The translations under genes were made by a program, and so were the position numbers. DNA of 57,224 nucleotides from an uncultured Lachnospiraceae bacterium (GTDB taxonomy: Bacteria; Bacillota; Clostridia; Lachnospirales; Lachnospiraceae). The notes under the pieces are model-generated. The model searched no databases. It was not told where the DNA came from and was given only the letters and a program-made list of their open reading frames with translations. Positions within the stretch are counted from its first letter, which is position 1; each line of letters opens with the position of its first letter. Location: assembly GCA_947382625.1 (NCBI GenBank), contig CANDAG010000024.1:1-57224 (forward strand). The letters are read 5' to 3'. Positions 6,534-52,440 of this stretch are shown here, piece after piece.

Positions 6534-6636
6534 CAAACGTCGTCCTTTACAAGGCCGGCTTATTGAACAAACGTCGTCCTTTACAAGGCCGATTTATTGA
6601 ACAAACGCCGCCATGCTTTGCGTGACAGCGTTTGAT
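6534..6636. repeat. Tandem array of three dispersed hairpin repeats
   Basis: Copies at 6534-6565 and 6568-6599 read CAA-AC-GTCG...-TTA-TTG on plus. Each has a 3-bp outer stem, an AC/TTA internal loop and an inner stem extended by CCTT with AAGG. The inner pair changes from GTCG/CGGC in copy 1 to GTCG/CGAT in copy 2, so pairing is kept. A third, hybrid copy (6602-6636) ends AAACGC with GCGTTT. The array lies between the GntR-clpC unit and the end of the SH3 gene. Confidence 0.7.
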
Positions 6637-6642
6637 GGTATA

Positions 6643-8025
6643 CTATAGATCTTTATCATCCATGTTTAAAAACTCAAATTCAAATTCATCGTCATCTACC
6701 AGAAAATTCTGAGGCTTTCTTGCAGGCTGTTTTCTGACCGGCTCTTTGTTTTCAAGAGCATGGAGTTCTCTCTCTCCTTTTGCTCTGGACTGTCCGGACC
6801 TGCTCTGGTTCCTCACCGGACGTTCCTCCTCCTGAGGTCTTGGTCTCTTTTTCCTTACAGGAGGTTCTTCCTCCTCTTCTTCCTCTTCTTCCTGAACAGG
6901 TTTTCTCCTTTTCCTTTTTACGGGTTCCGGTTCAGGCTCTTCCTCTTCTTCCTCTTCCTCATCCTCATAATCATCGCCATAATAAAGCTCTCTGATCTTA
7001 AACAGAAGGATCGTAAGAACAATAAACAGAAGAACGATCACTCCGGCCAGAACGATGATAATGATCTTTCCTTTATCGATCTGATCCTGAAGCTGCTGAT
7101 TACTCTCATTGGCTGTGCCGATGGCTGTCAAAAGCTCATTCAGCTTCTGTCTGGTCCCGTCAATATTGTTGTAGAGATAATACTCATATTCACCGGTCTC
7201 ATTCTGAGTATAGACAATTTCATAGTCGTTATGCTCTTCCTCAGGCGCAGGTTCTGCAGGCTCACCGCCCTCAGCTCCTTCCATCCCTTCTGTTCCTTCC
7301 GGATTTTCTCCTTCTGTCCCTTCCGGATTTTCTCCCTCTGTCCCCTCAGGGCTTTCGCCGCCTCCTTCCGGGCTGCTGCCTCCTACTGTGATAAGATCAG
7401 AACGCACATACCCCTGCACTGCTTTATCATTGTAGGTACAGCTGATCTGATACCACTTATTTCCTGCATTATCGGTTGCCTCGCCGATCAGGGTAACGCC
7501 TGTGCCGTTGGGCAGTGTCGCCACCGTACTGTGCTGTGTAGATGCACCCGACCGGATATTGGCATTTTTGCTGGATGTGATCGTAGCGGGCTGCTCTCCG
7601 ATGGACGTAGGCGTAGTCTCCGCTGGAGCCGATGTGGAAGAGCCGGACTGAGAGCCGCCGGACTGGCTGGTAGGTTCAATGGTTGCGCTGGTTTCCACCA
7701 GATCACTCCTGATATAACCGTATCCGCCTCCTGAAACGGACACCTTATACCACACACTCCCCGCACTGTCCTTCACTGCTTCCAGAATGTCTATGGTCTT
7801 TCCTCTCTGAGTACTTCCGACTACCTCGCTGTCTGTACTTGTCTGGGCCCGGATCTTTGCTGTCTCCGCAGTCACCTTGCCCTCCACCGCATAGCAGGAA
7901 AGCGCCGACAGGCAAAACACCGACAATGCAACTGCAAATCCGGCAGCTCCCTTTCCTATTATGTTCCTTCTCATTCCGCCGATGCTCTCCATCAGCGTTT
8001 TCAACTTCCTCATATCTGTATCCAT
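6643..8025 (-). CDS. SH3-domain surface protein with acidic cytoplasmic tail
   Basis: The product (460 residues from this start) has a hydrophobic export segment (about 27-46), two bacterial SH3 domains (about 49-113 and 147-215) joined by a Ser/Thr/Gln linker, a tandem PEGTEGEN repeat region, a second membrane helix (about 321-344) and a cytoplasmic tail with long Glu runs mixed with Arg/Lys-Pro patches. SH3b domains usually bind peptidoglycan, so I infer a wall-binding protein that may signal across the membrane. The start is uncertain: an ATG at 8109 has a better ribosome binding site (GGGGAGGG) but would overlap the upstream gene by 41 bases. It follows the zinc-ribbon gene in the same direction. 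Confidence 0.75.
   Translation of the reverse strand: MDTDMRKLKTLMESIGGMRRNIIGKGAAGFAVALSVFCLSALSCYAVEGKVTAETAKIRAQTSTDSEVVGSTQRGKTIDILEAVKDSAGSVWYKVSVSGGGYGYIRSDLVETSATIEPTSQSGGSQSGSSTSAPAETTPTSIGEQPATITSSKNANIRSGASTQHSTVATLPNGTGVTLIGEATDNAGNKWYQISCTYNDKAVQGYVRSDLITVGGSSPEGGGESPEGTEGENPEGTEGENPEGTEGMEGAEGGEPAEPAPEEEHNDYEIVYTQNETGEYEYYLYNNIDGTRQKLNELLTAIGTANESNQQLQDQIDKGKIIIIVLAGVIVLLFIVLTILLFKIRELYYGDDYEDEEEEEEEEPEPEPVKRKRRKPVQEEEEEEEEEPPVRKKRPRPQEEERPVRNQSRSGQSRAKGERELHALENKEPVRKQPARKPQNFLVDDDEFEFEFLNMDDKDL
7289..7360 (-). repeat. 24-bp tandem repeat inside the SH3 protein gene
   Basis: Three consecutive 24-base units (7289-7312, 7313-7336, 7337-7360) encode PEGTEGEN-type octapeptides. The first two units are nearly identical and the third is diverged. 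The unit length is a multiple of three, so copy-number change would keep the frame. Confidence 0.8.
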
Positions 8026-12292: not shown

Positions 12293-14343
12293 CGGAAATT
12301 CAACGGACGGTTCAGTTCCTCGCAGCCCGGCAATACAAATCTGCCTTCTTCTATAACAGGGATCACCTGCTCATCCCGGGTGACCACGCTGATCTCTCCC
12401 AGCTCATTATAAGGGATCGTGATATCTGTATGGCAGTTGAAATAGGCTGAGGCCCCCTGCTCTTTCCGCTTCAGAGAACACTCATTATCTTTGGCAATGA
12501 TCTCTTTTCCGTCAGGATTATAAACCCTCACATCCTCCCCATGAGAATAGCAGGTATCTCCCAACGCAAAATGGGGACCGGTCTTCTCAGCGATCAGAAT
12601 GGGAAGCTTATCCTCTATCTGATATTTCCTTGCCGCCGCAAAGGCAGTGGTGTTAGTGCCGATGGCAAACTCTCCCAGCGGCAGGCTCTCGTGGTGGAAA
12701 AGCACATTATCCCTGATATACTTACGGTTTTCCTCCGGGCTTTCAAAATTGCTGCAGTCATAGTCTGCCACCATGCCGTCCTTAAAGGTCACCATAAGAT
12801 TCCGGTATTCCAACTCATTCAGATACACACGGCTTACGTGAAGTATCCCTTCCGTACCTGCAAGCACTGGGGAGGTAAATACCTCTCCCACAGGGATATT
12901 CACATCTGCCACACAATTCTCAAAGTTGGTCTGCCTGCCGTCCTCAGATAAGGGGTGAAGCATTACTTTGAGGTTTGTCTTATTTCCATTCATCCCCTTA
13001 ACAATCACATATTTCCCCAGATCAAGGATATCAATGATCCTTTGCTGCATCTGCTGATAGAGCTTGTAATCCAGGGTATTGATACGGATCACCTCGTCAA
13101 AGATCTCCGGAAAAGCCTCTCCGATCTCCGGCGTAGGAAATGCAATAATGGTAAAGCTTCTCTCCTCCCCCTTAATATAGCGGTTCTGGATCTCTCCTGC
13201 GGCTGACCGGTATTCCACCGAAAGCTTCTGCTGTTCTTTGGACAGGTGCAGCGCTTCCGGTTTTTCCCTAAGCTCCGCAGGCTGTTCCCCAAAGGTTTCA
13301 ACCACCGCCGGCCCGCCGTAAACAGCCGCCTGGTCCTTATACTGCTCATATCCTTCCTTAAGCGCCTCCAGCCGTACCTGGACCAGCTTTTTATCAAGCA
13401 CAAGGGCCAGATCGTCCTTATGATCAAAATCATATTGTTTGTTGGGAGCCGCGCCGAAATATCCCGGTCTGTTTACTCCTTTCAAATAGAGAAGACTGGA
13501 AGGGTACCGGTAAAGGGTTGGCAAAAGTCCCATGGCCCTGAAATTCCCGATCGCCTTTTTGATCATCGGCTCAAAGCCCAGGCTGTAACGGATCTCAACG
13601 GTTTTCTTTTTGGAAATATCTTTATTGCCGGTTATAAAACCGATGCGATACCCTTCTGTGTAGGTATCCGCCATCTTTTTTAGTGTATCCTCCGGCAGAG
13701 AGGACAGATGCTTCCAGGTTTTGATCTCATTATCGGTAATATATTCCCCGAAATAATAGAGGTATCTTTCATCCGACAAGTCTCCCTCCACGATCCTGCA
13801 GGCAAAATCCGATTCCGGCAGGAGCATGTCCGCAAGACGCCTCCCTGCCGCATCCCTTGCATAATCGCTGACATACCAGTATATGCTCTCCTTCAGGGCC
13901 TTTGAGCCTGGAAGGATTTCATCCTCCTTAAGGCTCATGCAGAAGGAGCCGTATATCTCCAAAAACAGCTCCAGACGGATCACGATCTCCTCCAGACGAT
14001 TTTCGAAGACCAGCGGGATCAGACTGCGCAGTTCTCCATACAAGGCGCAGAGTATCTGTCCATATTCCTCCCCCAGCCGTTCTGCGCATACCTGGGGATT
14101 AGCATAGCTTTCCCCGTAATTTTCGGGAAGGATATCCTCATAAAGCTTACGGTTCCTGTGCCTTAGCTCCTTCACCGGACTCTCCTTCAGACCTCCCTCC
14201 CTGATAAAAGCATATTCCCCGCAGACCATGGAAAGAAATGCCGCTGTTTTTACAAAATATTCCTGAAACGCCGCCGGCAGTACAGCTTCACTTTTCAGTT
14301 CATCTATCCTCTCTTTTGCCAATGAAAATCTTTCTTCTATCAT
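12289..14343 (-). CDS. M29-family metallo-aminopeptidase with long N-terminal extension
   Basis: The C-terminal half of this 684-residue protein matches the M29 (thermophilic aminopeptidase, AmpS/AmpT) fold. Putative metal ligands lie in NIPVGEVFTSPV, in EKTGPHFALGDTCYSHG and in CHTDITIPYNELG. These enzymes release N-terminal amino acids in the cytoplasm. The first about 300 residues are an extension that standard M29 enzymes (about 400 residues) lack; its function is unknown. No signal peptide is seen. The ribosome site AAGGGG is seven to eight bases before the ATG. The stop codon lies in a palindromic repeat that may end the transcript. Confidence 0.8.
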   Translation of the reverse strand: MIEERFSLAKERIDELKSEAVLPAAFQEYFVKTAAFLSMVCGEYAFIREGGLKESPVKELRHRNRKLYEDILPENYGESYANPQVCAERLGEEYGQILCALYGELRSLIPLVFENRLEEIVIRLELFLEIYGSFCMSLKEDEILPGSKALKESIYWYVSDYARDAAGRRLADMLLPESDFACRIVEGDLSDERYLYYFGEYITDNEIKTWKHLSSLPEDTLKKMADTYTEGYRIGFITGNKDISKKKTVEIRYSLGFEPMIKKAIGNFRAMGLLPTLYRYPSSLLYLKGVNRPGYFGAAPNKQYDFDHKDDLALVLDKKLVQVRLEALKEGYEQYKDQAAVYGGPAVVETFGEQPAELREKPEALHLSKEQQKLSVEYRSAAGEIQNRYIKGEERSFTIIAFPTPEIGEAFPEIFDEVIRINTLDYKLYQQMQQRIIDILDLGKYVIVKGMNGNKTNLKVMLHPLSEDGRQTNFENCVADVNIPVGEVFTSPVLAGTEGILHVSRVYLNELEYRNLMVTFKDGMVADYDCSNFESPEENRKYIRDNVLFHHESLPLGEFAIGTNTTAFAAARKYQIEDKLPILIAEKTGPHFALGDTCYSHGEDVRVYNPDGKEIIAKDNECSLKRKEQGASAYFNCHTDITIPYNELGEISVVTRDEQVIPVIEEGRFVLPGCEELNRPLNFR

Positions 14344-14401
14344 ATTTATACCCCTTTGCGAGTTTTATTTCATCCCTGCAGATGTGCCCGGGCAACAGCC
14401 T

Positions 14402-14725
14402 TCACTCCACATATGCCCCTGCAAATAAAATGAGGCTCAGCATGCCAAAGGCCATAATATTCACAAAGATTCCCAGTACCGTAAAAAGCCTGAACTTCTC
14501 TGTTTCCGTGGTGGACCAGATTCCCAGTCCCATGCCTGTGGTCATAAAGATCACCGCCAGAAAAGCCGCCGCCGCATATCTCTCGGAAGAGACTCCTCCT
14601 CCCAGATAAGAAAAATAAACGGCAAGCCCCAGCGTAATATTGGCAAGCATTCCCAAAATAGTGGACATGATACCTTTTTCCGTATGCTTTTTGTTGGTAA
14701 AAATAAATCCTTTACTTTTCAGCAT
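14402..14725 (-). CDS. Small polytopic membrane protein (DUF6142-like)
   Basis: This 107-residue protein has three predicted membrane helices (about 20-42, 50-70 and 80-103) after a short basic start (FTNKKHTEKGIMST). The pattern resembles a Lachnospiraceae family I know as DUF6142, but I cannot confirm the match. Function is unknown. It sits between pyrE with its small partner and the M29 peptidase, and the hairpin at 14790-14822 separates it from pyrE. Confidence 0.7.
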   Translation of the reverse strand: MLKSKGFIFTNKKHTEKGIMSTILGMLANITLGLAVYFSYLGGGVSSERYAAAAFLAVIFMTTGMGLGIWSTTETEKFRLFTVLGIFVNIMAFGMLSLILFAGAYVE

Positions 14726-19744: not shown

Positions 19745-19766
19745 ATCAAACGCTTTGCTTATTGAT
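19745..19766. repeat. Minimal dispersed hairpin repeat in the infC leader
   Basis: Plus strand ATCAA-AC-GC-TTT-GC-TTA-TTGAT: a perfect 5-bp outer stem, the AC/TTA internal loop and a 2-bp inner stem with a three-base loop. In the infC mRNA it reads AUCAA-UAA-GC-AAA-GC-GU-UUGAU and lies between the attenuator and the ribosome site. Confidence 0.7.
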
Positions 19767-26991: not shown

Positions 26992-27029
26992 AACATAAGG
27001 ATGGCTGGCCAGGCCTGTCATCCGTTGTT
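26992..27029. repeat. Dispersed hairpin repeat, AACA/TGTT type
   Basis: Plus strand AACA-TAA-GGATG...CATCC-GT-TGTT. The outer stem is 4 bp, the internal loop TAA/GT and the inner stem GGATG/CATCC, around a GC-rich 15-base loop. It lies in the leader region before the small gene that precedes thrS. Confidence 0.75.
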
Positions 27030-27670: not shown

Positions 27671-27708
27671 ATCAAACGCCGCCATGCTCCGCGAGCCGGC
27701 TTATTGAT
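27671..27708. repeat. Dispersed hairpin repeat, ATCAA/TTGAT type
   Basis: Plus strand ATCAA-AC-GCCG...CGGC-TTA-TTGAT: a 5-bp outer stem, the AC/TTA loop and a 4-bp inner stem. It lies between the lepB promoter and start, so it would be part of the lepB mRNA leader. Confidence 0.75.
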
Positions 27709-27837: not shown

Positions 27838-28704
27838 ATGAACATTCAAATCATTACCGACTCTGCGTCGGACATTGTAAACTCTGACCGGAAGGATTTA
27901 ACGGTCCTTCCCATGACCATCACCTTTGGAGAAACGGAATACCTTGATGGCGTGACTCTCACCCACAGGGAGTTTTTTGAACGGCTGATCGAATGCGATG
28001 AGCTTCCTACCACCAGTCAGATCTCTCCCTTTGCCTTTTCAAAGGCTCTGGAAACAGCCACCGGGAACGGGGATCCTGCCATCGTTATCACCATGTCCGG
28101 AAAGCTCTCCGGCACTTACCAGAGTGCCTGCATTGCTGCAGAAGAATTTGAAGGAAAAGTATTTGTAGTAGACAGTGAGAATGTTACCGTAGGGGAAAGA
28201 GCCCTTGTGGAATACGCCCTTCGTCTTAAGGACGCCGGCGAAAGCGCCGAAGACATTGTAGCAGAATTAAACCGTGCCAAAAAGCATATCCAGCTGATCG
28301 CCCTTTTAGACACTCTTGAATATCTGAAAAAGGGCGGACGCATTTCCAAAACCGCCGCCCTGGCAGGCAGTGTTCTGTCCATCAAGCCTGTGATCGGGAT
28401 CGTAGACGGAGAGGTTGCCATGCTGGGCAAGGCAAGAGGCTCCAAGCAGGGAAATAACCTTCTGGCAGAGCACATCAAAAAGGCCGGAGGCATCGATTTT
28501 GAGAAGCCCTTCTTCCTGGGCTACACGGGACTGAGCGATTCCCTGATGCAAAAATACATAAAGGACAGCGAGGCGCTCTGGATGGAGCATATGGGCGATC
28601 TGCCCTCAGGAAATCTGCCCATCGCTACCGTAGGCGGCACCATTGGAACCCATGTAGGGCCGGGCGGTATCGCAATAGCTTTCTTTGCTCCTTCTGTTCA
28701 CTGA
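27838..28704 (+). CDS. DegV family fatty-acid-binding protein
   Basis: DegV (FakB-type) proteins bind a fatty acid and, with the kinase FakA, supply acyl-phosphate for lipid synthesis. The 288-residue product begins NIQIITDSASDIV, with the family motif DSASD. It contains LPTTSQISPF and ITMSGKLSGTYQSA, the loop that holds the fatty-acid carboxylate, and a C-terminal EDD-type domain ending TVGGTIGTHVGPGGIAIAFF. AAGGAG seven bases upstream supports the start. It is a single plus-strand gene, divergent from lepB. No fakA is in the window. Confidence 0.93.
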   Translation: MNIQIITDSASDIVNSDRKDLTVLPMTITFGETEYLDGVTLTHREFFERLIECDELPTTSQISPFAFSKALETATGNGDPAIVITMSGKLSGTYQSACIAAEEFEGKVFVVDSENVTVGERALVEYALRLKDAGESAEDIVAELNRAKKHIQLIALLDTLEYLKKGGRISKTAALAGSVLSIKPVIGIVDGEVAMLGKARGSKQGNNLLAEHIKKAGGIDFEKPFFLGYTGLSDSLMQKYIKDSEALWMEHMGDLPSGNLPIATVGGTIGTHVGPGGIAIAFFAPSVH

Positions 28705-28738
28705 CAACGGATGTCAGACTTTGCCAGCCATCCATAAC
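28703..28738. repeat. Degenerate dispersed hairpin repeat after degV
   Basis: AC-GGATG...CATCC-ATA keeps the inner stem, but the outer stem is lost and the loop is altered. It directly follows the degV stop codon. Confidence 0.5.
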
Positions 28739-28841: not shown

Positions 28842-30815
28842 TTACTTTACGTAGTACTGTGCCTGTGCATTCCAGAGCTCACAATACTTTCCCTTCTCCT
28901 GGGCCAGCAGCGCCTCGTGGTTTCCCTGCTGGAGGATCCTCCCCTCGTGAAACACAAGGATCTCATCGCAGAAACGGCAGGAAGCAAGCCTGTGACTGAT
29001 GTAAATGGCAGTCCGGTCTCCCACGATCTCATTAAATCTGGTATAGATCTCATACTCTGCCACCGGGTCAAGAGCTGCCGTAGGCTCATCCAAAATGATA
29101 AAAGGGGCGTCATGGTACAGACTTCTGGCAATGGCGATCTTCTGAGCCTCACCGCCGGAAATTTGCACCCCTTCCCCATCCAGATCCTTATAAAGGATGG
29201 TATCAAGCCCTTTCGGCTGTGTAGACAGCCACTGGGCCAGTCCCGCCCTTTGAAGACACGAGGCTGCTTTTTCCCGGTCAGCCCCCTGGAAAACAGGATT
29301 CCTTTTTTCTTCTCTTTTTCCCGTATCGGAAAGGGCGCGTCTTTTCCCTCCCTTATCCCCTGCCGCCACGTTCTCCAGAAGACTCATGGCAAGGAGCTGA
29401 AAATCCTGGAAGACCACGGAAAAGACACTCAGGTATTCCCGATAATTATATTTGCGGATATCAATACCATTGAGCAGGATTTCTCCTTCCGTAGGATCAT
29501 AAAGCCGGCACAGGAGCTTGATAAAGGTGGTCTTGCCGGAGCCATTCTGCCCCACTACCGCCAGCCGCTGCCCTACTTTGAATTTCAGGGAAATGTTTTT
29601 GAGCACATCAGTATCTGTGTGGGGATACCGAAAACTCACATTTCGAAATTCCACCTCATACTTCCGGTCGGAGCGCTTTTCCACTGTCAGAGAACCCTGA
29701 TACATTTCGTTGGGAATGTCCAGAAAGGCAAAGGTCATTTTCAGAGTGTCGCTGTTCACCTTCATCTCCCCAAGCAGCCCCAGCATCCCGGAAAGCCCTC
29801 TGGAAAGAGCAGTGATGGCGCCGATATACTGCGTCACCGCACCCACTCCGAAGGCGCCGCCCCAGGCCTTGAGACAGACAAAAAGATATACCACCCACAA
29901 AAAGCTTTTTGACACAACTGCCGACAGAGCGTAAAGCATTCCCATTTTTCCCCTGCTGCAGTCTCTGGACATTCCTGAATACACTCCTGTTTTTGGGTCA
30001 ACCACTCCCTGTATTTTCCCGATCCCGAAAAGATCCTGCCGGTACATCCGCACATCAAGCGCCTTTTTTTCCTCTTGGAACAGGGACATAAAGGAGAAAT
30101 ACAGCTGGTTTCCGGATCTCATTTCTTTTTCATGAAGCATCTCCCGCATTTGAGCCAATGTGGCCAGATAAGGAGCAAGAGCCGTAATCCCTGCCATTAC
30201 CAGTATCAACAGAAGGATACAGACAGGGTGGTTCAGCCATGAAAGCCTGCCCGCTTCCTCTGAAACCGGAAGCGCAAAAAGTGACACCGTCAGGGTGATC
30301 GCTCCAAGCATCCGGAAAGCCTCCTCTATGAAGCCTTTAAAATGCCAGTAGGTTCTGCTAAGTCCCCAGCCCGTCCATTCTACCCTCTGCCGGATCCGGC
30401 TCAGCTGATCGTAGGTGGATACGTCATCCGCGGCTGCGAAATCCATGGTCAGCATTTTGTGGGAAATCCTTTTCTCACTATGATAATAAAGGGTGGCGGA
30501 AAGAGCCTCCTTCCATCGAAAAACCAGCGCCTTTAACAGACAGGCGGCCGCCTCTGAAAGAAGCAGTATCATCACCCACCTGCCCAGCATCTGCCCTCTC
30601 CGGGCTCCTGCCAGCTCATCCAAAAGCCGGGCGGAAAAATAAAGGGGCAGATAGGGAGTAAGGGCAGCGATCGCCGAATAAAGTCCGGTGGACAAAAACA
30701 GCATGGGATTTTCTCTAAACCAGATCTGCAGCGCCCGCTTGTTCAGGAAATAGCTTTCCTTCCATGAAATTCCTTCTTTGGTATTTCTTTGTTGTCTTCT
30801 CTTTTTTTCCCTCAT
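28842..30815 (-). CDS. ABC exporter half-transporter, second subunit of a pair
   Basis: A 657-residue type I ABC exporter half: about six membrane helices (about 35-345), then a nucleotide-binding domain with Walker A GQNGSGKTT, signature QISGGEAQKIAIARS, Walker B IILDEPTAALD and the H-loop SHRLAS. All catalytic residues look intact. A charged insert of about 30 residues (GDKGGKRRALSDTGKREEKR and following) lies between the Q-loop and the signature, which is unusual. Its ATG overlaps the stop of the upstream ABC gene by four bases (ATGA), so the two halves are made together and most likely form a heterodimer. The cargo is unknown. Confidence 0.88.
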   Translation of the reverse strand: MREKKRRQQRNTKEGISWKESYFLNKRALQIWFRENPMLFLSTGLYSAIAALTPYLPLYFSARLLDELAGARRGQMLGRWVMILLLSEAAACLLKALVFRWKEALSATLYYHSEKRISHKMLTMDFAAADDVSTYDQLSRIRQRVEWTGWGLSRTYWHFKGFIEEAFRMLGAITLTVSLFALPVSEEAGRLSWLNHPVCILLLILVMAGITALAPYLATLAQMREMLHEKEMRSGNQLYFSFMSLFQEEKKALDVRMYRQDLFGIGKIQGVVDPKTGVYSGMSRDCSRGKMGMLYALSAVVSKSFLWVVYLFVCLKAWGGAFGVGAVTQYIGAITALSRGLSGMLGLLGEMKVNSDTLKMTFAFLDIPNEMYQGSLTVEKRSDRKYEVEFRNVSFRYPHTDTDVLKNISLKFKVGQRLAVVGQNGSGKTTFIKLLCRLYDPTEGEILLNGIDIRKYNYREYLSVFSVVFQDFQLLAMSLLENVAAGDKGGKRRALSDTGKREEKRNPVFQGADREKAASCLQRAGLAQWLSTQPKGLDTILYKDLDGEGVQISGGEAQKIAIARSLYHDAPFIILDEPTAALDPVAEYEIYTRFNEIVGDRTAIYISHRLASCRFCDEILVFHEGRILQQGNHEALLAQEKGKYCELWNAQAQYYVK

Positions 30816-32614
30816 CCTTCTGCCTCCCCGGGAGCCTCCCTGTAATATTTACTTTGTATCTCAAAAAGCTGTGCATAATACCCTTTTTGCAAAAGCAGCT
30901 CCTCGTGAGTTCCCTCCTCGGCAACCTTCCCGTCCTTTAACAGGATAATGCGGTCGCAAAACCGGGTAGAGGCAAGTCTGTGGGAAATAAACACGGAAGA
31001 TTTGCCCGCCGCCAGCTCCTGATATTTCTGATAAATGTCGCTTTCCGCAATGGCGTCCAGGGCCGCCGTAGGCTCATCCAATATCATAACCGGACGATCC
31101 TGATATAACAGCCAGGCCATCATCAGCCTCTGCAGCTCTCCGCCGGAAAAGTCCACCGCATCATCATAGGCCTCCTTTTCCAGATGGGTATGATACCCCC
31201 TGGGCAATCCTTCGATCTTCTTTAAAAGCCCTACCTTTTCCAGACAGTCACGCACCCTGTCCCTGTCAATTTCCCCGAAAACACAGGCCACATTCTCCCA
31301 AAGCTCTCCCGGCAGCAGGGAAAAATTCTGAAACACTGCCGCAAAAAGCGTATAATAATCTCTGCGGTTAAATTCCCGGATATCCGTGCCACCCAGCAGC
31401 ACCTGGCCTTCATCCGGATCATAGAATCCGCACAACAGCTTTATCAGGGTGGTCTTTCCGGCTCCATTTTCTCCCACCACTGCCAGCTTTTCCCCCGGAT
31501 GCAGCGTCAGGTTCAAATGGGAAAATATTTCTTTGTCTGCTCCGGGATAACGGAAGGTCACATCCCGAAGCTCGATGGTATATGCTTTCTGCGGGTCGGC
31601 TGTCAGTTTCTTCCCGCCCTCAAAAACAAAAGGCTCCTCATAATCCTCCAGCTCCCTGATACAGGAAAGCTCGATACTCTGCCTGTGAAGCTTTGTAAAA
31701 CTTTGCAGGATCCCGTTTACCCATGCGGTAAAGCCGCTGACTGCCGTAAAATAGAGCAAAAATTCCGATGCGCCCAGATTCCCCCGGACTGTCAGATACA
31801 GCAGCCATAGATAGGCTATCCCGTTGCGTAGAAACGTAAGAGCCAGATCTGCAAAATCTGCAAGCAAATAGACCCTCTCCCGCCTCAGATAAAAATCCTG
31901 CAGCATTTTAAGATAACCGTTCATCATCTCTTCTATCCACTCGCCAATGCCAAAGAGCCTCACATCCTTTGCCAAAGAGCGGTCCCTGGCCTTATTCCGG
32001 AAATAGAAGAACCTGTTTTTGATATCCCCCTCCTCCTGTCTGTGCCGGTAGCCCCAGCCATTTAAGTGACTGCTGACCAGATACCCGGCCACTGCCGCCG
32101 CTATGGTCACAAGCGCAATGATCGGATCCACCCGGGATAATAGACACAGATAGATCAGAAAGCCCAGAAGATTTTGCAGGATCCCCGCAAAGGTATTCCA
32201 GATATCCTCTGCCGGAGATCCATTTGCCATGGATGCGTCGGTCGCCTTTGCAAAAAGACGGATAAACTCCTGGCTCTCCCTCACCGGATAAGAGCAGCTT
32301 CCCGTCTTTTTCCACATTTTACATATGATAGAAAGACGCACCAGCATTCTCATATACATCTGGTTCTTTTCCAGATATTCGGAAAGTCCATGAATCCCCA
32401 TAAGACCCAGCGCAAAAAGACTGATGATCCAGATAAGCTCCTTTAACGGAACGTGCCGCTGCAGACTGTCCAGGATCACCGGCGTCACATACAGCTCCAA
32501 TAAGGAAGCGGATACCACAAACAAGGCCTGCAATACAGTACATACAAGCACAATGGGGTTTACCAGAGCCGCCTCTCTGATCATATAAAGGGAATTGCTT
32601 ATCATCTTTTTCAC
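30812..32614 (-). CDS. ABC exporter half-transporter, first subunit of a pair
   Basis: A 600-residue type I ABC exporter half with six membrane helices, Walker A GENGAGKTT, signature FSGGELQRLMMAW, Walker B VMILDEPTAALD and the H-loop SHRLAS. The signature is divergent (FSGGE), as is often seen in heterodimeric exporters. The start codon is GTG at 32614, with AGGAGG seven bases upstream; the ATG three codons on is too far from it. It precedes its partner with an ATGA overlap. A LytTR/GHKL two-component pair lies just upstream on the same strand, suggesting a link, though a terminator separates them. Confidence 0.87.
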   Translation of the reverse strand: MKKMISNSLYMIREAALVNPIVLVCTVLQALFVVSASLLELYVTPVILDSLQRHVPLKELIWIISLFALGLMGIHGLSEYLEKNQMYMRMLVRLSIICKMWKKTGSCSYPVRESQEFIRLFAKATDASMANGSPAEDIWNTFAGILQNLLGFLIYLCLLSRVDPIIALVTIAAAVAGYLVSSHLNGWGYRHRQEEGDIKNRFFYFRNKARDRSLAKDVRLFGIGEWIEEMMNGYLKMLQDFYLRRERVYLLADFADLALTFLRNGIAYLWLLYLTVRGNLGASEFLLYFTAVSGFTAWVNGILQSFTKLHRQSIELSCIRELEDYEEPFVFEGGKKLTADPQKAYTIELRDVTFRYPGADKEIFSHLNLTLHPGEKLAVVGENGAGKTTLIKLLCGFYDPDEGQVLLGGTDIREFNRRDYYTLFAAVFQNFSLLPGELWENVACVFGEIDRDRVRDCLEKVGLLKKIEGLPRGYHTHLEKEAYDDAVDFSGGELQRLMMAWLLYQDRPVMILDEPTAALDAIAESDIYQKYQELAAGKSSVFISHRLASTRFCDRIILLKDGKVAEEGTHEELLLQKGYYAQLFEIQSKYYREAPGEAEG

Positions 32615-32684
32615 ATTTCTCCTCCTTGGTCTCTGCCTTTTTTATTATTTATAAAGGATTTCCTTATGCGCTTTACTATAGCAC

Positions 32685-32712
32685 AAAAAAACCCCGGCAA
32701 TGCAATCCGGGG
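32685..32712 (-). terminator. Terminator between the kinase and ABC exporter genes
   Basis: On minus, CCCCGG and CCGGGG pair around a nine-base loop and are followed by seven T. It would end most transcripts from the regulator-kinase pair before the exporter genes. Confidence 0.8.
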
Positions 32713-32737
32713 ACGAAATGCATTATCGGGGGGATAA

Positions 32738-32850
32738 ACAACGGACAGCACGCTTCGCGAACTGTCCTTATGCAAACAACGGATGCCACGCTTCGCGAGA
32801 CATCCTTATGTTAACAACGGATGCCAGGCTTCACCAGCCATCCTTATGTT
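32738..32850. repeat. Tandem array of three dispersed hairpin repeats
   Basis: Copies at 32738-32772, 32775-32812 and 32813-32850 read AACA-AC-GGATG...CATCC-TTA-TGTT on plus. Copy 1 has GGACAG/CTGTCC in place of GGATG/CATCC, so both arms changed together. The AC/TTA internal loop is identical in all three, and copies 2 and 3 have complete outer stems. The array lies between the kinase stop and the terminator. Confidence 0.85.
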
Positions 32851-32854
32851 AAAC

Positions 32855-33526
32855 TCACTGGGGCAGCAAAATCTCTGTAGTGAAGGCCCCATCCTCACTG
32901 TTTCTGCTGATATAGCCCTGATATTTTTCTACAATGGTATCTATCCGCACCAGTCCGTAACCGCGGCCTCTTCCCTTGGTGGAGAGAAAACGCCCGTCTG
33001 TCTTTCGCTGCTTTGGAAGGGCAGTACTGTTGGTGAAGGAAATGTAAAGCTGGGTATTTTTCATTTCCATATAAACCCGTATCATCCGCTCCTTTTCGGG
33101 GAGGGCCATACATGCTTCAATGGCATTGTCAAAAAGATTTCCAATGATGATGCACAGATCAATCTCCGCTGTTTTAAGGGATACCGGTACATGGGCATCT
33201 GCCGTCACCTGGATTTTCCTTGACCTCGCCAGGGAAATTTTGCTGTTTAAAATGATATCCGTCATTTTATTTCCCGTTTTCAGTGCCAGGTCTACCGTGT
33301 TCAGATCCGCTTCCAGCGCGCCCAGATAATCGGAGGCGGCCTCTACATCTCCCATAGCCAGATAACTTTTCAATACCTGGATATGGTTCCGGTAGTCGTG
33401 ACGCCAGCCCCGCATCTGGCGGTACATGTTCTCCACCTCCGCGTAATGCGTGGCCAGAAGGTCGCTTTGGCAGGCCGCCAGCTGTTTGTTCATTCTTTTT
33501 TCCCGAAAGGATAGCTTTAACAACAT
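32855..33526 (-). CDS. GHKL histidine kinase without membrane sensor
   Basis: A 223-residue kinase core. A helical dimerisation segment has the phospho-acceptor motif GWRHDYRNHIQVL, followed by the GHKL ATPase with N-box NLFDNAIEAC and G-box GRGYGLVRI. This is the AgrC/VirS-like group that pairs with LytTR regulators, but the usual five to seven membrane helices are absent. The frame starts near 33526 with GGGAGA close to the ATG. It lies 38 bases after the LytTR gene. It may sense a cytosolic cue or need a separate receptor. Confidence 0.85.
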   Translation of the reverse strand: MLLKLSFREKRMNKQLAACQSDLLATHYAEVENMYRQMRGWRHDYRNHIQVLKSYLAMGDVEAASDYLGALEADLNTVDLALKTGNKMTDIILNSKISLARSRKIQVTADAHVPVSLKTAEIDLCIIIGNLFDNAIEACMALPEKERMIRVYMEMKNTQLYISFTNSTALPKQRKTDGRFLSTKGRGRGYGLVRIDTIVEKYQGYISRNSEDGAFTTEILLPQ

Positions 33527-36069: not shown

Positions 36070-36093
36070 AAATATGTATCCCTCTTTTCTTTC

Positions 36094-36166
36094 TCAATCA
36101 GCTGGCACGCAAGGTGTGTCGGCGTTTGATCAATAAGCCAGCACACAAGGTGCGACAGTGTTTGAT
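36094..36166. repeat. Two tandem dispersed hairpin repeats in the bioY leader
   Basis: Copy 1 (36094-36129) is TCAA-TCA-GCTG...CGGC-GT-TTGA. Copy 2 (36129-36166) is ATCAA-TAA-GC...GT-TTGAT, with a weak inner stem. Both are in the TAA/GT orientation on plus. They lie between the bioY promoter and its start, so they would be transcribed into the bioY leader. Confidence 0.65.
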
Positions 36167-38146: not shown

Positions 38147-38186
38147 ATCAAACGCCTTCCCGCTCTGCGGGTCGGCTTATTGAATA
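38147..38186. repeat. Dispersed hairpin repeat before aspS
   Basis: Plus strand ATCAA-AC-GCC-TT-CCCGC-TCT-GCGGG-TC-GGC-TTA-TTGA. Outer stem, AC/TTA loop and a strong two-part inner stem (GCC/GGC and CCCGC/GCGGG) are all intact. It lies in the aspS mRNA leader. Confidence 0.8.
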
Positions 38187-46031: not shown

Positions 46032-47110
46032 AACCGGGCAAGCAATGCTTCCCACTGATCTAAAATATCCTTTTCTCCAAAACGCCGGATCACCTCTCCG
46101 GCGTTTTGGCCCATTTTTTTCCTCAGATCTTCATCCCTCATAAGCGTTTCCATCTTTTCTGCAAACGCTTCTATCTGTCCCGGCTCCACCAGGAAACCGT
46201 CCCTGCCGTCAGAAATGATCTCCCCTGGTCCTGTTTTGCAGGAATAGCTCACTGCAGGAAGCGAAAAGCCCATGGCCTCCAGCAGTACCATTGGAAAGCC
46301 CTCATCCCTTGAGGGAAATACAAAAAAGCCTGCCTTCTGATAAAGCCTTTCAATTTCCTTTACTCTTCCTGCGAATACAATATTTTTAAGTCCTGCCGCC
46401 CGGGCCTTCCTTTCCAGCTTTTCCCGATCCTCTCCTTCTCCTGCGATCATAAGCTTCCATTCGGGATAATATGGTTCCAGCATTGTCCAGCTGTCGATGA
46501 GCAGATCAAAGCCCTTGACCTTCGTGAGCCTTCCCGCCCCCAATATCAGCTTCTCTTCTTCCGTTTTTTTCAAAACTCTTTCATAGGGAACCGGATTATA
46601 AATATGGATCACAGGACACCTGAATTTCAGATTACGGCAATAATACTCCCGATCCTCCTGTGTCAGCACCACCAGAGCGTCCGCCCACCTACATACCAGC
46701 CGTCTTACGATTTTTCTCAGATAATGATTGCGTGGAAAGTGATAATAATAATTAAAATGCTCCCAGGAAATCCAACTCAGTCCTCTTCTTTTCATTCCGG
46801 TCAATCGAACAGGAAACGAGTAAAAGCCCAGGATCATATCCACATCGATCAAAAAATCCGCCTGCTCCTTTTTCAGGATCCGGGTCATATGGCAGAGCTG
46901 CCTGATAATATCAAAGCTCCCGCAGTCCTCTTCCATCCAGTAGATCCTTATGGTATCCTCCAACGCAAAAAAGGGCTGTCCTTTTCCCCAGAGACTCATG
47001 ACAGAAACATGAAATCCTCTTCTTGACAGCCCGTTTGCCACCACCGACAGAACCCTTTCCGTCCCGCCGGAGTGACTCATATTTCCGATAAAAAAAACAA
47101 CAGATGTCAA
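46028..47110 (-). CDS. GT4 glycosyltransferase, last gene of the pel-like operon
   Basis: The 360-residue enzyme has two Rossmann domains: the N-terminal half starts NMSHSGGTERVLSVVANGLSRRG, and the C-terminal half has the KVKGFDLLI basic motif and the EX7E motif (EGFPMVLLE) that holds the nucleotide sugar. It works in the cytoplasm, adding one sugar to a growing glycan or lipid carrier. The start codon is TTG at 47110, seven bases after AGAGG. It lies 59 bases after the DUF4874/DUF4832 gene, with a hairpin repeat between. Confidence 0.88.
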   Translation of the reverse strand: MTSVVFFIGNMSHSGGTERVLSVVANGLSRRGFHVSVMSLWGKGQPFFALEDTIRIYWMEEDCGSFDIIRQLCHMTRILKKEQADFLIDVDMILGFYSFPVRLTGMKRRGLSWISWEHFNYYYHFPRNHYLRKIVRRLVCRWADALVVLTQEDREYYCRNLKFRCPVIHIYNPVPYERVLKKTEEEKLILGAGRLTKVKGFDLLIDSWTMLEPYYPEWKLMIAGEGEDREKLERKARAAGLKNIVFAGRVKEIERLYQKAGFFVFPSRDEGFPMVLLEAMGFSLPAVSYSCKTGPGEIISDGRDGFLVEPGQIEAFAEKMETLMRDEDLRKKMGQNAGEVIRRFGEKDILDQWEALLARF

Positions 47111-51102: not shown

Positions 51103-52440
51103 TTATTTTCTGCCGCCAACGCTGATCCTGCCCAGCAGCACCTTCTCTTCAGCCCCCTCATTGGCAAATCGGAGGATTTTTCCGTCTCTTTTCCTCTTAA
51201 GCTGCAAAAAAAGCATTCCCTCTTCAAATACCTCTTTAAACCGGGGAAAAGGCGCCCTGATCACAGAGCTCTCCCCGCTTTTCCAGCTTCGGGGATCTGC
51301 CTGGGGCAATGTAACAGAAATTTCTTTTCCGCTCCCCTGCTCTATCAAAAGAAAGCATTCCGCTTCTTCCCTTAAACCTGCGAAACCGCAGTTTTCTATC
51401 CTGATCAATAAGCTGGCCTGCGAAGCGTGGCAGCCCTTACTACACAGCTCATATTTTTTGGATACCCTGACATCCCGGACAACAAACCGATATCCCAGAT
51501 GACGCCCTATATAATCAAATCCACTGACACCACTCCATACCCCATGCTGTGTTACCCTTTGCTTTTTCCAGTATGCAAGGATTTCCGGATGATAGACACT
51601 GTTTAAATAGCTTAAATGCATTTTCTGCATATCCGCCACAGCCTGCCTGTATCCCACCGGGTCTTTTCCCCATAATGCCTCCCCGCCGTTTGGCACATAT
51701 TCCATATGCTGTGCCTGCCATTCCAGCTCTTCTGCACGTTTCCACGGGTCTGTATCTTTGGTTTTTTGCCTGCTCTCACTCCCATAGGTTCCAAGATCTG
51801 TCTCTGAGCCAAAGATCCCGTCGTTGTACAGCCCAAGTCCCTGCTTCAGTGCCGGAGCCGTATTTCTATGCTCTGTTATGGTTCTTAGCTGAGCCGGTGT
51901 CCGTACTGACAGATGACATCTGCCCGCCGCCGCAAAATACAGGGTATTAGCCAGCTCAGACATTTGACCGGCCCCAAGATACTTTGAACTGTGCATCTCT
52001 CCCCAGCTCCCGACAAAAATCCCCTGTAATACAAGAATATCTCTTGCATACTCACCAAGGAGTCCTCCCACCTGTTCCATATGCCTTTTGACCAGTGAAA
52101 TGGAGGAGGGTTCTCTCTCCATCCCCCTTCCTTCCGTGTCATAGGCAAACCGCAGGATCATCTGTTTCCCCAGGGAATGAAAAAAATCAAAAATCCTTCT
52201 GATACATAAAAGAGCATCTTCTGAAAGCTCCCGCCCCCTGAAGGATCCGATATCGATCAATACAAGAGCCAGCTGCTCCCCGGGACTGCTGTCCCAAAGC
52301 TCACAGTCCGAAGGTATCCGGAAGGTATAGATATGATACCATCCACAGCCCGGATTTCCCAGCTCCTCGCTGCTTTCCTTTCCCAGGCTCTTTTTAAAAT
52401 TCAACTCAGGTACAGGATCAAAGCCTGTCAATATCTTCAT
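51103..52440 (-). CDS. DUF4874/DUF4832 protein without signal peptide
   Basis: The 445-residue protein matches the anchored paralogue at 47170 throughout: GNPGCGWYHIYTFRI, QMILRFAYDTEG, FVGSWGEMHSSKYLG, VRTPAQLR, YVPNGGEALWG, VSGFDYIGRHLGYRF. It begins MKILTGFDPVPELNFKK, with no signal or helix, so it looks cytoplasmic unless it uses another route. The upstream GT4 gene ends nine bases before. The conserved GEM and GGEA acidic positions are kept in both paralogues. Confidence 0.8.
   Translation of the reverse strand: MKILTGFDPVPELNFKKSLGKESSEELGNPGCGWYHIYTFRIPSDCELWDSSPGEQLALVLIDIGSFRGRELSEDALLCIRRIFDFFHSLGKQMILRFAYDTEGRGMEREPSSISLVKRHMEQVGGLLGEYARDILVLQGIFVGSWGEMHSSKYLGAGQMSELANTLYFAAAGRCHLSVRTPAQLRTITEHRNTAPALKQGLGLYNDGIFGSETDLGTYGSESRQKTKDTDPWKRAEELEWQAQHMEYVPNGGEALWGKDPVGYRQAVADMQKMHLSYLNSVYHPEILAYWKKQRVTQHGVWSGVSGFDYIGRHLGYRFVVRDVRVSKKYELCSKGCHASQASLLIRIENCGFAGLREEAECFLLIEQGSGKEISVTLPQADPRSWKSGESSVIRAPFPRFKEVFEEGMLFLQLKRKRDGKILRFANEGAEEKVLLGRISVGGRK

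Follow-up and report, generated by a model that had tools for sequence, protein, structure and literature searches.

A family of 38 nt hairpins, divided here into subfamilies A and B, is dispersed through genomes of Lachnospiraceae and is probably a REP-like family of non-autonomous mobile hairpins, whose movement would have taken place in trans. The two subfamilies were recognized in a 57,224 nt stretch of DNA from an uncultured Lachnospiraceae bacterium (the window), and both follow one common plan.

On the strand read by the initial annotation, A has the form AACA-AC-GGA...TCC-TTA-TGTT and B has the form TCAA-AC-GCYG...CRGC-TTA-TTGA, which the outermost pair extends to ATCAA...TTGAT. That strand is probably the wrong one; the complement, with the internal loop TAA/GT, is the likelier folding strand. 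On the probable folding strand, A reads like 5'-AACA-TAA-GGATGGC-T-GGC-RRA-GCC-T-GACATCC-GT-TGTT-3' and B reads like 5'-ATCAA-TAA-GCCG...CGGC-GT-TTGAT-3'. Each unit is closed by an outer stem, inside which follow the near-invariant TAA/GT internal loop and the inner stem, and then a mismatch, three pairs and a triloop rich in purines; the interior (the inner stem of 6-7 bp, the mismatch, the 3 pairs and the triloop) is common to A and B. The central mismatch is mostly A.A on the strand first read, equivalent to a T.T that is the most frequent state on the folding strand. The triloop is TTC, TCC, TTT or TCT in 105 of 114 distinct A copies and 39 of 44 distinct B copies, being mostly GAA, GGA, AAA or AGA on the folding strand. 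Outer-stem variants with both sides changed are TCAA/TTGA, GCAA/TTGC, ACAA/TTGT, CCAA/TTGG, ACGA/TCGT and ATCA/TGAT, and a further inner-stem type, GAATG/CATTC, occurs at 13 core-pattern sites, at least 8 of which have the A outer stem. The initial proposal of two subfamilies with one architecture is supported.

The tandem trio first reported at 32738..32850 consists of three head-to-tail 38 nt copies (32737-32774, 32775-32812 and 32813-32850) with the stems claimed for it: copy 1 has GGACAG/CTGTCC, and the other two have GGATG/CATCC. Each of the nine other coordinates named with it carries a copy or a remnant, and the estimate of about a dozen copies in 57 kb compares with a window total of 15 copies and one doubtful remnant at 51409. 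They are listed below with scores from the models R1 (A) and R2 (B), where the strand is the probable folding strand, i.e. the complement of the strand first read.

32737..32774, minus strand: A-type, array copy 1 (GGACAG/CTGTCC), R1 55.4 bits
32775..32812, minus strand: A-type, array copy 2 (GGATG/CATCC), R1 63.9 bits; the minus strand folds better
32813..32850, minus strand: A-type, array copy 3, R1 60.3 bits
26992..27029, plus strand: A-type, in the opposite orientation to the array, R1 57.3 bits
28707..28736, minus strand: A-type, degenerate, TTA side lost, R1 23.5 bits
47134..47171, minus strand: A-type, between ORFs that end or start at 47110 and 47170, R1 59.4 bits
27671..27708, minus strand: B-type, R2 60.5 bits
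36093..36166, plus strand: two B-type copies head-to-tail, 36093-36130 (TGA for TTA) and 36129-36166 (intact)
38147..38184, minus strand: B-type, R2 49.8 bits
6533..6636, minus strand: three B-type copies head-to-tail; in the third, the right end is a second left-type end (GCGTTTG)
19745..19766, minus strand: B-type remnant with inner stem GC-TTT-GC, outer stem and AC/TTA loop intact, R2 27.9 bits
3113..3135, plus strand: B-type, truncated copy
51409..51434, plus strand: doubtful B-type remnant, E 0.046

The internal loop had been called invariant; AC/TTA is kept in 12 of the 15 window copies, but it is lost at 28707 (ATA for TTA), at 36093 (TGA) and at 6600, where the right end is replaced. 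The degenerate element at 28707..28736 starts 2 nt past the stop codon of a plus strand ORF that ends at 28704. The hybrid B copy at 6600-6636, with GCGTTTG at both ends on opposite strands, is possibly the recombination product of two elements. Elsewhere in the window (28842-32614), adjacent ORFs of 657 and 600 aa contain a common diverged 120 nt repeat that is 71% identical, and probably encode paired subunits of one protein family.

Selection on the fold, as claimed at the outset from paired changes, is supported by the counts of cells changed on both sides of a pair. In a sample of 33 A copies (30 distinct) and 30 B copies, taken from the window and some of the first-listed source-genome places, there are 42 such cells in A versus 16.9 in shuffled alignments and 19 in B versus 9.3, and 0 of 500 shuffles reach either count. 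Across 116 A copies (90 distinct; 111 from other records), 98 double-changed cells compare with 41.2 in shuffles (0 of 500 reaching), in an alignment that favours structure because it was fitted to the model. The further pair types equal those of shuffles (13 vs 12.1 in A, 10 vs 10.0 in B), and the number of B pairs with a double change, 5 vs 3.7 shuffled, is reached by 117 of 500 shuffles. The outermost B pair, which the search left free, is Watson-Crick at 47 of 61 sites versus 23.1 shuffled (TA 26, AT 16, CG 4); all other outer pairs are scarcely above shuffles, and too constant to tell. Covariation is present in the inner stem and in the outermost B pair. With the loop left free, in stretches that were not chosen by pattern, the exact AC/TTA loop is found at 11 of about 12 recognisable sites for A and at 14 of about 19 for B, where chance rows were told apart by eye and every site was entered twice because the motif is near-palindromic.

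The choice of strand follows from unequal wobble counts. A folding strand would show more G.T than A.C at its paired positions; on the strand first read, A.C versus G.T is 78 vs 19 among 114 distinct A copies and 27 vs 12 among 44 distinct B copies, where the test is weak, and 74 vs 28 when the weak pair 12-26 is excluded, so the complement is favoured. The p-values of this comparison are unreliable, because the copies are related and were counted as independent. Energies were computed for three window copies, and all three favour the complement: for 32775-32812, the complement has -8.4 kcal/mol as DNA and -16.2 kcal/mol as RNA versus -5.9 and -9.3 kcal/mol for the strand first read; for 26992-27029, -8.5 and -16.6 versus -5.2 and -10.2 kcal/mol; and for 27671-27708, whose energy is little better than shuffles on either strand, -8.2 and -12.7 versus -7.0 and -10.7 kcal/mol.

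In the source genome (4.18 Mb, 88% complete), strict patterns match 101 times for A and 138 times for B, the latter number including at least one place entered twice through overlapping matches; the reversed control patterns match 0 (A) and 0 (B) times. Within 843 kb, comprising 40 stretches of the source genome and the window, R1 and R2 have 26 and 38 matches at E <= 0.01, with overlapping tandem B copies incompletely listed by R2. A scan of the same 843 kb for the bare architecture yields 29 distinct sequences, 27 of which resemble A or B, and Markov-shuffled sequence yields none. Across the genus, the A pattern occurs in 21 and the B pattern in 26 of 37 genomes (source genome included), with 0 to >200 matches per genome; Parablautia intestinalis and P. 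muri strains are among the carriers, and both species fall in this genus, given the hit coordinates that G165 and G166 have in common with the named records. The near-identical expansions, as judged by eye, differ between species. Further, a scan of named records found A in at least 110 stretches, most of which bear the title Lachnospiraceae or uncultured, and R1, run with stricter filters over 150 genomes of the family, matched in 5 (the source genome and 4 of the 149 others). The JAMPGV records (L073, L080, L095 and others; in these labels G is a genome, L a locus stretch and C a contig) belong to a MAG titled Muribaculum sp. and hold many A elements; the title is probably wrong, these A elements being otherwise found in Lachnospiraceae-titled records. 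Viral contigs have 0 exact matches to the A and B patterns, and the window array has no match at E <= 0.01 among phage and plasmid records.

The view that the family corresponds to no known Rfam entry stands. No match at gathering score covers the elements of the window, whose sole Rfam match is a tRNA. At relaxed threshold, positions 32600-32900 have four weak matches, three of them over a terminator hairpin and its surroundings (32673-32747) and the fourth over the array (32763-32802), with 10.7 bits against a gathering score of 59.8. The literature searched holds no description of the A/B family, in a partial check that had most subscription papers outside its reach.

The elements have one orientation with respect to the terminators they adjoin. 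The usual order on the folding strand is terminator hairpin, T-tract and element, and roughly every second array has a T-tract immediately on its 5' side. In particular, an A4 run begins no more than 5 nt beyond the TTA-TGTT or TTA-TTGAT end in 87 of 166 arrays, versus 6 of 166 at the mirror flank. A strict detector (an A-run, then a hairpin) places an opposite-strand terminator within 6 nt in 33 of 165 arrays, compared to 0 of 165 on the mirror side and 0.2% of 3288 points located 60-150 nt away; 130 of the 165 arrays are without an adjoining terminator by this detector. A loose detector, reaching to 90 nt, finds an opposite-strand terminator in 65 of 171 arrays (16 of 45 in the source genome, 49 of 126 at named loci), against a background of about 8% at random intergenic points. 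It also finds a same-strand terminator on the same 3' side in 31 of 171 arrays (8 of 45 and 23 of 126), above the background of about 8%, which is the excess that bidirectional terminators would give. At the other flank, the counts on the two strands are 3 and 2 of 45 (source genome) and 10 and 4 of 126 (named loci). The terminator-adjoining share of all arrays ranges from a fifth (strict) to two fifths (loose); each array is counted once, selection of the named loci relied on the A pattern, and a match may contain up to 3 substitutions.

The nearest gene on the terminator side points towards the element in 22 of 35 cases in the source genome and 64 of 94 at named loci, with gene direction taken from ORF-based calls, and with in-ORF arrays and 12 named-locus arrays of unknown neighbour excluded. 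The elements had been described as lying only between genes and in both orientations. They are nearly confined to intergenic DNA, which makes up 11-12.5% of the sequence when genes are called crudely as six-frame ORFs of at least 90 aa; an overlap with such an ORF is seen for 30 of 171 arrays. Both orientations do occur along the chromosome (24 plus and 21 minus in the 40 source-genome stretches without the window), but the orientation relative to an adjoining terminator is fixed. Separately, at L255 (~2185) and L258 (~1373), a copy of the ACGA/TCGT type stands directly behind a terminator that follows a GGTGGAACCGCG stretch resembling a T-box leader.

This polarity has a precedent: bacterial-C group II introns integrate immediately after rho-independent terminators (PMC8919778). 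A retroelement-like process, in which a group IIC-intron-type reverse transcriptase (RT), or something similar, inserts a short hairpin RNA behind terminators in trans, would share both target and polarity with these introns, and the folding strand is the terminator sense strand. We nonetheless consider such a process improbable. The 2.4 Mb of loci scanned, which include roughly a fifth of the source genome, contain no match to a typed group II RT motif, and 38 nt is far below the size of an intron.

Neighbouring elements mostly share one orientation. At sampled loci (212 elements), all 42 neighbour pairs separated by up to 200 nt are in the same orientation, 41 of them within 5 nt, and array neighbours often differ in stem type, as they do in the window. 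Among the listed source-genome places, a hand count that covered 100 of the 138 B places gave 38 same-orientation pairs out of 42. The 3' ends face each other in all 4 inverted pairs, and in 3 of these (contigs C7, C23 and C25) a terminator-like hairpin, seen by eye, lies between the two elements; the inverted pairs resemble separate insertions on either side of one terminator more than they resemble REPIN units. In G166, the same genome as Parablautia muri, positions 79324-80097 of C167 contain 21 listed B-type hairpins, near-identical and with a 37 nt period, and these copies suggest that local slippage may also build arrays.

Comparisons between relatives reveal occupied, empty and shared sites. 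The only comparison that is clean at base level pairs L159, which is occupied, with L107, which is 92% identical and empty, the terminator and A-rich flank being present in both; the junction at this single empty site is compatible with a 4 nt repeat, TAAA, and one additional T, a possible target-site duplication of the sort expected of DDE-transposon MITEs. A terminator T-tract in G168 is followed by two copies, and the orthologous terminator in G167 is without a copy. Similarly, the window array at 32737-32850 is absent from the orthologous site of G194, and the spacers of G200 that are orthologous to 26992 and 27671 have no recognisable element, although these spacers are unalignable. Shared sites include an A copy common to L151 and L356 (from G167 and G168), the ACGA/TCGT copy behind the leader terminator common to L255 and L258, and an A-type pair common to the near-identical L064 and L128. 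Between the last two, from records titled 1xD8-48 and Parablautia muri, stretches of 5.2 and 1.2 kb are 99.98-100% identical. L262 is bare opposite the L258 copy, which may reflect loss instead of an empty target because L252 retains a deletion remnant of that copy. Rows of shared or absent sites were dropped where the loose finder had caught conserved coding DNA of equal length on both sides (e.g. L249, L251, L260, L262, window 26483 and L167/L382) and where the same genome had been fetched twice (100% identity); L107/L135 and L156/L084 are too diverged to count.

These sites bear on whether the hairpins could instead be functional RNA or DNA elements kept in place, for example as mRNA 3' stabilisers, back-up terminators or insulators, or protein-binding sites. 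The conserved fold, the position beside terminators and the three sites common to different records would all suit such a role. However, several sites that hold an element in one genome lack it in a relative, the folding strand is normally untranscribed because it lies beyond the terminator, and the species-specific expansions and the range of copy number within the genus (described above) fit poorly with a function in place, which is an unlikely explanation overall.

Under the preferred reading of a mobile REP-like family, the hairpin, single-stranded as DNA or RNA, would be recognized in trans by a putative enzyme via its TAA/GT loop and fold, and would then be joined 3' of another hairpin with a T-rich tract. 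The 3' end of either type of element (the hairpin with its GTTGTTT or GTTTGAT tail) resembles this target and could serve as the next one, which would explain the head-to-tail arrays of mixed subtypes. An RNA route deserves consideration because bacterial-C group II introns follow the same target rule (PMC8919778). A bolder proposal, which we put forward tentatively, is that A and B constitute a new class of minimal mobile hairpin, combining a REP-like way of life, recognition of single-stranded DNA or RNA via the TAA/GT loop, non-Y1 insertion behind a hairpin plus T-tract, a self-made next target, head-to-tail growth and a target rule like that of group IIC introns.

The initial annotation had suggested looking for a linked RAYT or TnpA_REP transposase, and no such link was found: the sole Y1 match in the source genome is an IS605-type TnpA with no element near. 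That match adjoins TnpB pieces, in a genome that is 88% complete. The IS605-type unit on source-genome contig C99 (L061, 132-1304) has an open TnpA frame and a TnpB in two short frames (93 and 119 aa), which is apparently decayed. Across the genus, Y1 number and element number are uncorrelated (rho 0.15, p 0.37, n = 37), and of the 17 genomes in which 10 or more elements occur, 7 have no Y1 match, including G167 (listed as 100% complete) and G185, G194 and G198 (94-98%). Several Y1-negative relatives are incomplete: G168 (88%), G195 (78%) and G200 (59%). All 10 Y1 proteins tested score above the IS200/IS605 cut-off and none above that of REP_Tyr, which 8 of the 10 match weakly, and no A- or B-type hairpin occurs at the 52 Y1 loci examined, a number in which certain genes are counted twice. 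A Y1 enzyme or RAYT as mobiliser of the present copies is not supported, given the Y1-negative carriers, the IS200/IS605 class of the proteins and the element-free Y1 loci.

The same data weigh on the possibility that A and B are ordinary REPs with a RAYT that has since disappeared or falls in an unassembled region, the copies being left-overs. Their size, interrupted stem and intergenic dispersal are REP-like, and a RAYT gene can be missing from the data because the source genome and the Y1-negative G168, G195 and G200 are incomplete. Yet G167 lacks Y1 as well; GTAG, GTGG or CGTC motifs come within 6 nt of a foot in no more than 2 of the 165 arrays for any class; inverted pairs are rare; and both the class of the Y1 proteins and the absence of elements from their loci speak against it. 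We regard this explanation as rather doubtful, if somewhat less so than either a group IIC-type RT or a function in place.

The recurrent gene neighbours of the elements are ordinary families (ABC transporters, LacI-like and response-regulator-like proteins, by eye) and an Rpn cluster. PF04754-like ORFs stand beside B elements at L180:5529-6399, L184:14600-15614 and L172:8222-9209, one of these ORFs occupying two frames. Beside B elements near PF04754-like ORFs, a conserved block (GAATTGATCAGACTGGAAATA..TTTTCC) recurs at three places, including L172 ~7900-8020 and L184 ~14320-14510, and may be another dispersed repeat. Spread of the elements by the Rpn/YhgA-like nuclease family (PF04754) came into consideration because three Rpn-like ORF loci in the first source-genome stretches had B elements near. 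These loci, however, include just 2 of the 9 source-genome PF04754 matches, and the other 7 are without a detected element in the 5 kb stretch round the gene, the finder having missed two short B copies ~1.4 kb from one of them. In other genomes, an A element lies within ~2 kb of the gene at 2 of 13 PF04754 loci; there is no correlation with element number across the 37 genomes (rho 0.24, p 0.16); and G168 and G166 have 59 and 43 pattern matches but no PF04754 match. The candidate is not borne out by the counts at other loci and across the genus, and we consider it very improbable.

REP-like palindromes are usually explained by RAYTs, and here is an abundant, constrained family for which no RAYT was found, in a family of gut Firmicutes where several copy-rich genomes are without any Y1 match. 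Its insertion rule is sharp: behind T-tracts and terminators, in one orientation and in tandem with itself. If the terminator rule is mechanistic, these hairpins would join group IIC introns in having terminators as safe harbours, and would be the second kind of element to do so. Moreover, Parablautia intestinalis and P. muri are named carriers in which to ask how REP-like repeats spread without RAYTs.

The stem of A and B is interrupted by the TAA/GT loop and the central mismatch, and a TAA likewise occurs in the stem interruption of the E. coli REP. REPs are described as dispersed intergenic palindromes of 20-40 bp, some with an interrupted stem, present in many copies and in several families per genome, predominantly 3' of genes (PMC3733652, PMC6006769, PMC3116915). 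The REP-like way of life suggested for the hairpins at the outset agrees with A and B in size, high copy number, intergenic dispersal and interrupted stem, which here is of the long type. The two REP superfamilies are GTAG, tied to RAYTs, and CGTC, apparently without a dedicated transposase (PMC3733652). In contrast to GTAG REPs, A and B have no GTAG or GTGG foot; a RAYT flanked by copies was not found for them, with 10 Y1 proteins classified; their orientation to terminators is fixed; and their hosts are Lachnospiraceae, not mainly Proteobacteria. They also differ from REPINs and BIMEs in their inverted doublets, which make up 0 of 42 pairs at sampled loci and 4 of 42 at listed places. CGTC REPs are alike in being REP-like palindromes without an apparent dedicated transposase, and different in host phylum and in a tag that occurs in 0 of 165 A/B arrays.

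Two other systems share parts of the behaviour. Group IIC introns insert just 3' of terminators (PMC8919778), on the side and in the sense shown by the folding strand of A and B, but the intron is a long ribozyme with an RT and A/B is a 38 nt hairpin. In IS200/IS605 elements, subterminal hairpins are recognised as single strands (PMC6006769), and insertion beside a short target would suit head-to-tail growth; unlike them, A and B have no internal gene, and no such hairpin accompanies the 52 Y1 loci examined. Counterparts by description are the untagged REP-like families of M. tuberculosis, D. radiodurans, Bordetella, Brucella and Cyanobacteria, of which 'many more likely occur' (PMC3733652); the text of that source does not mention Firmicutes or Clostrid. 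Because A and B have no tag, no regular inverted doublets and no RAYT that was found, they are filed not as GTAG or CGTC REPs but as an untagged REP-like mobile hairpin family of Lachnospiraceae.
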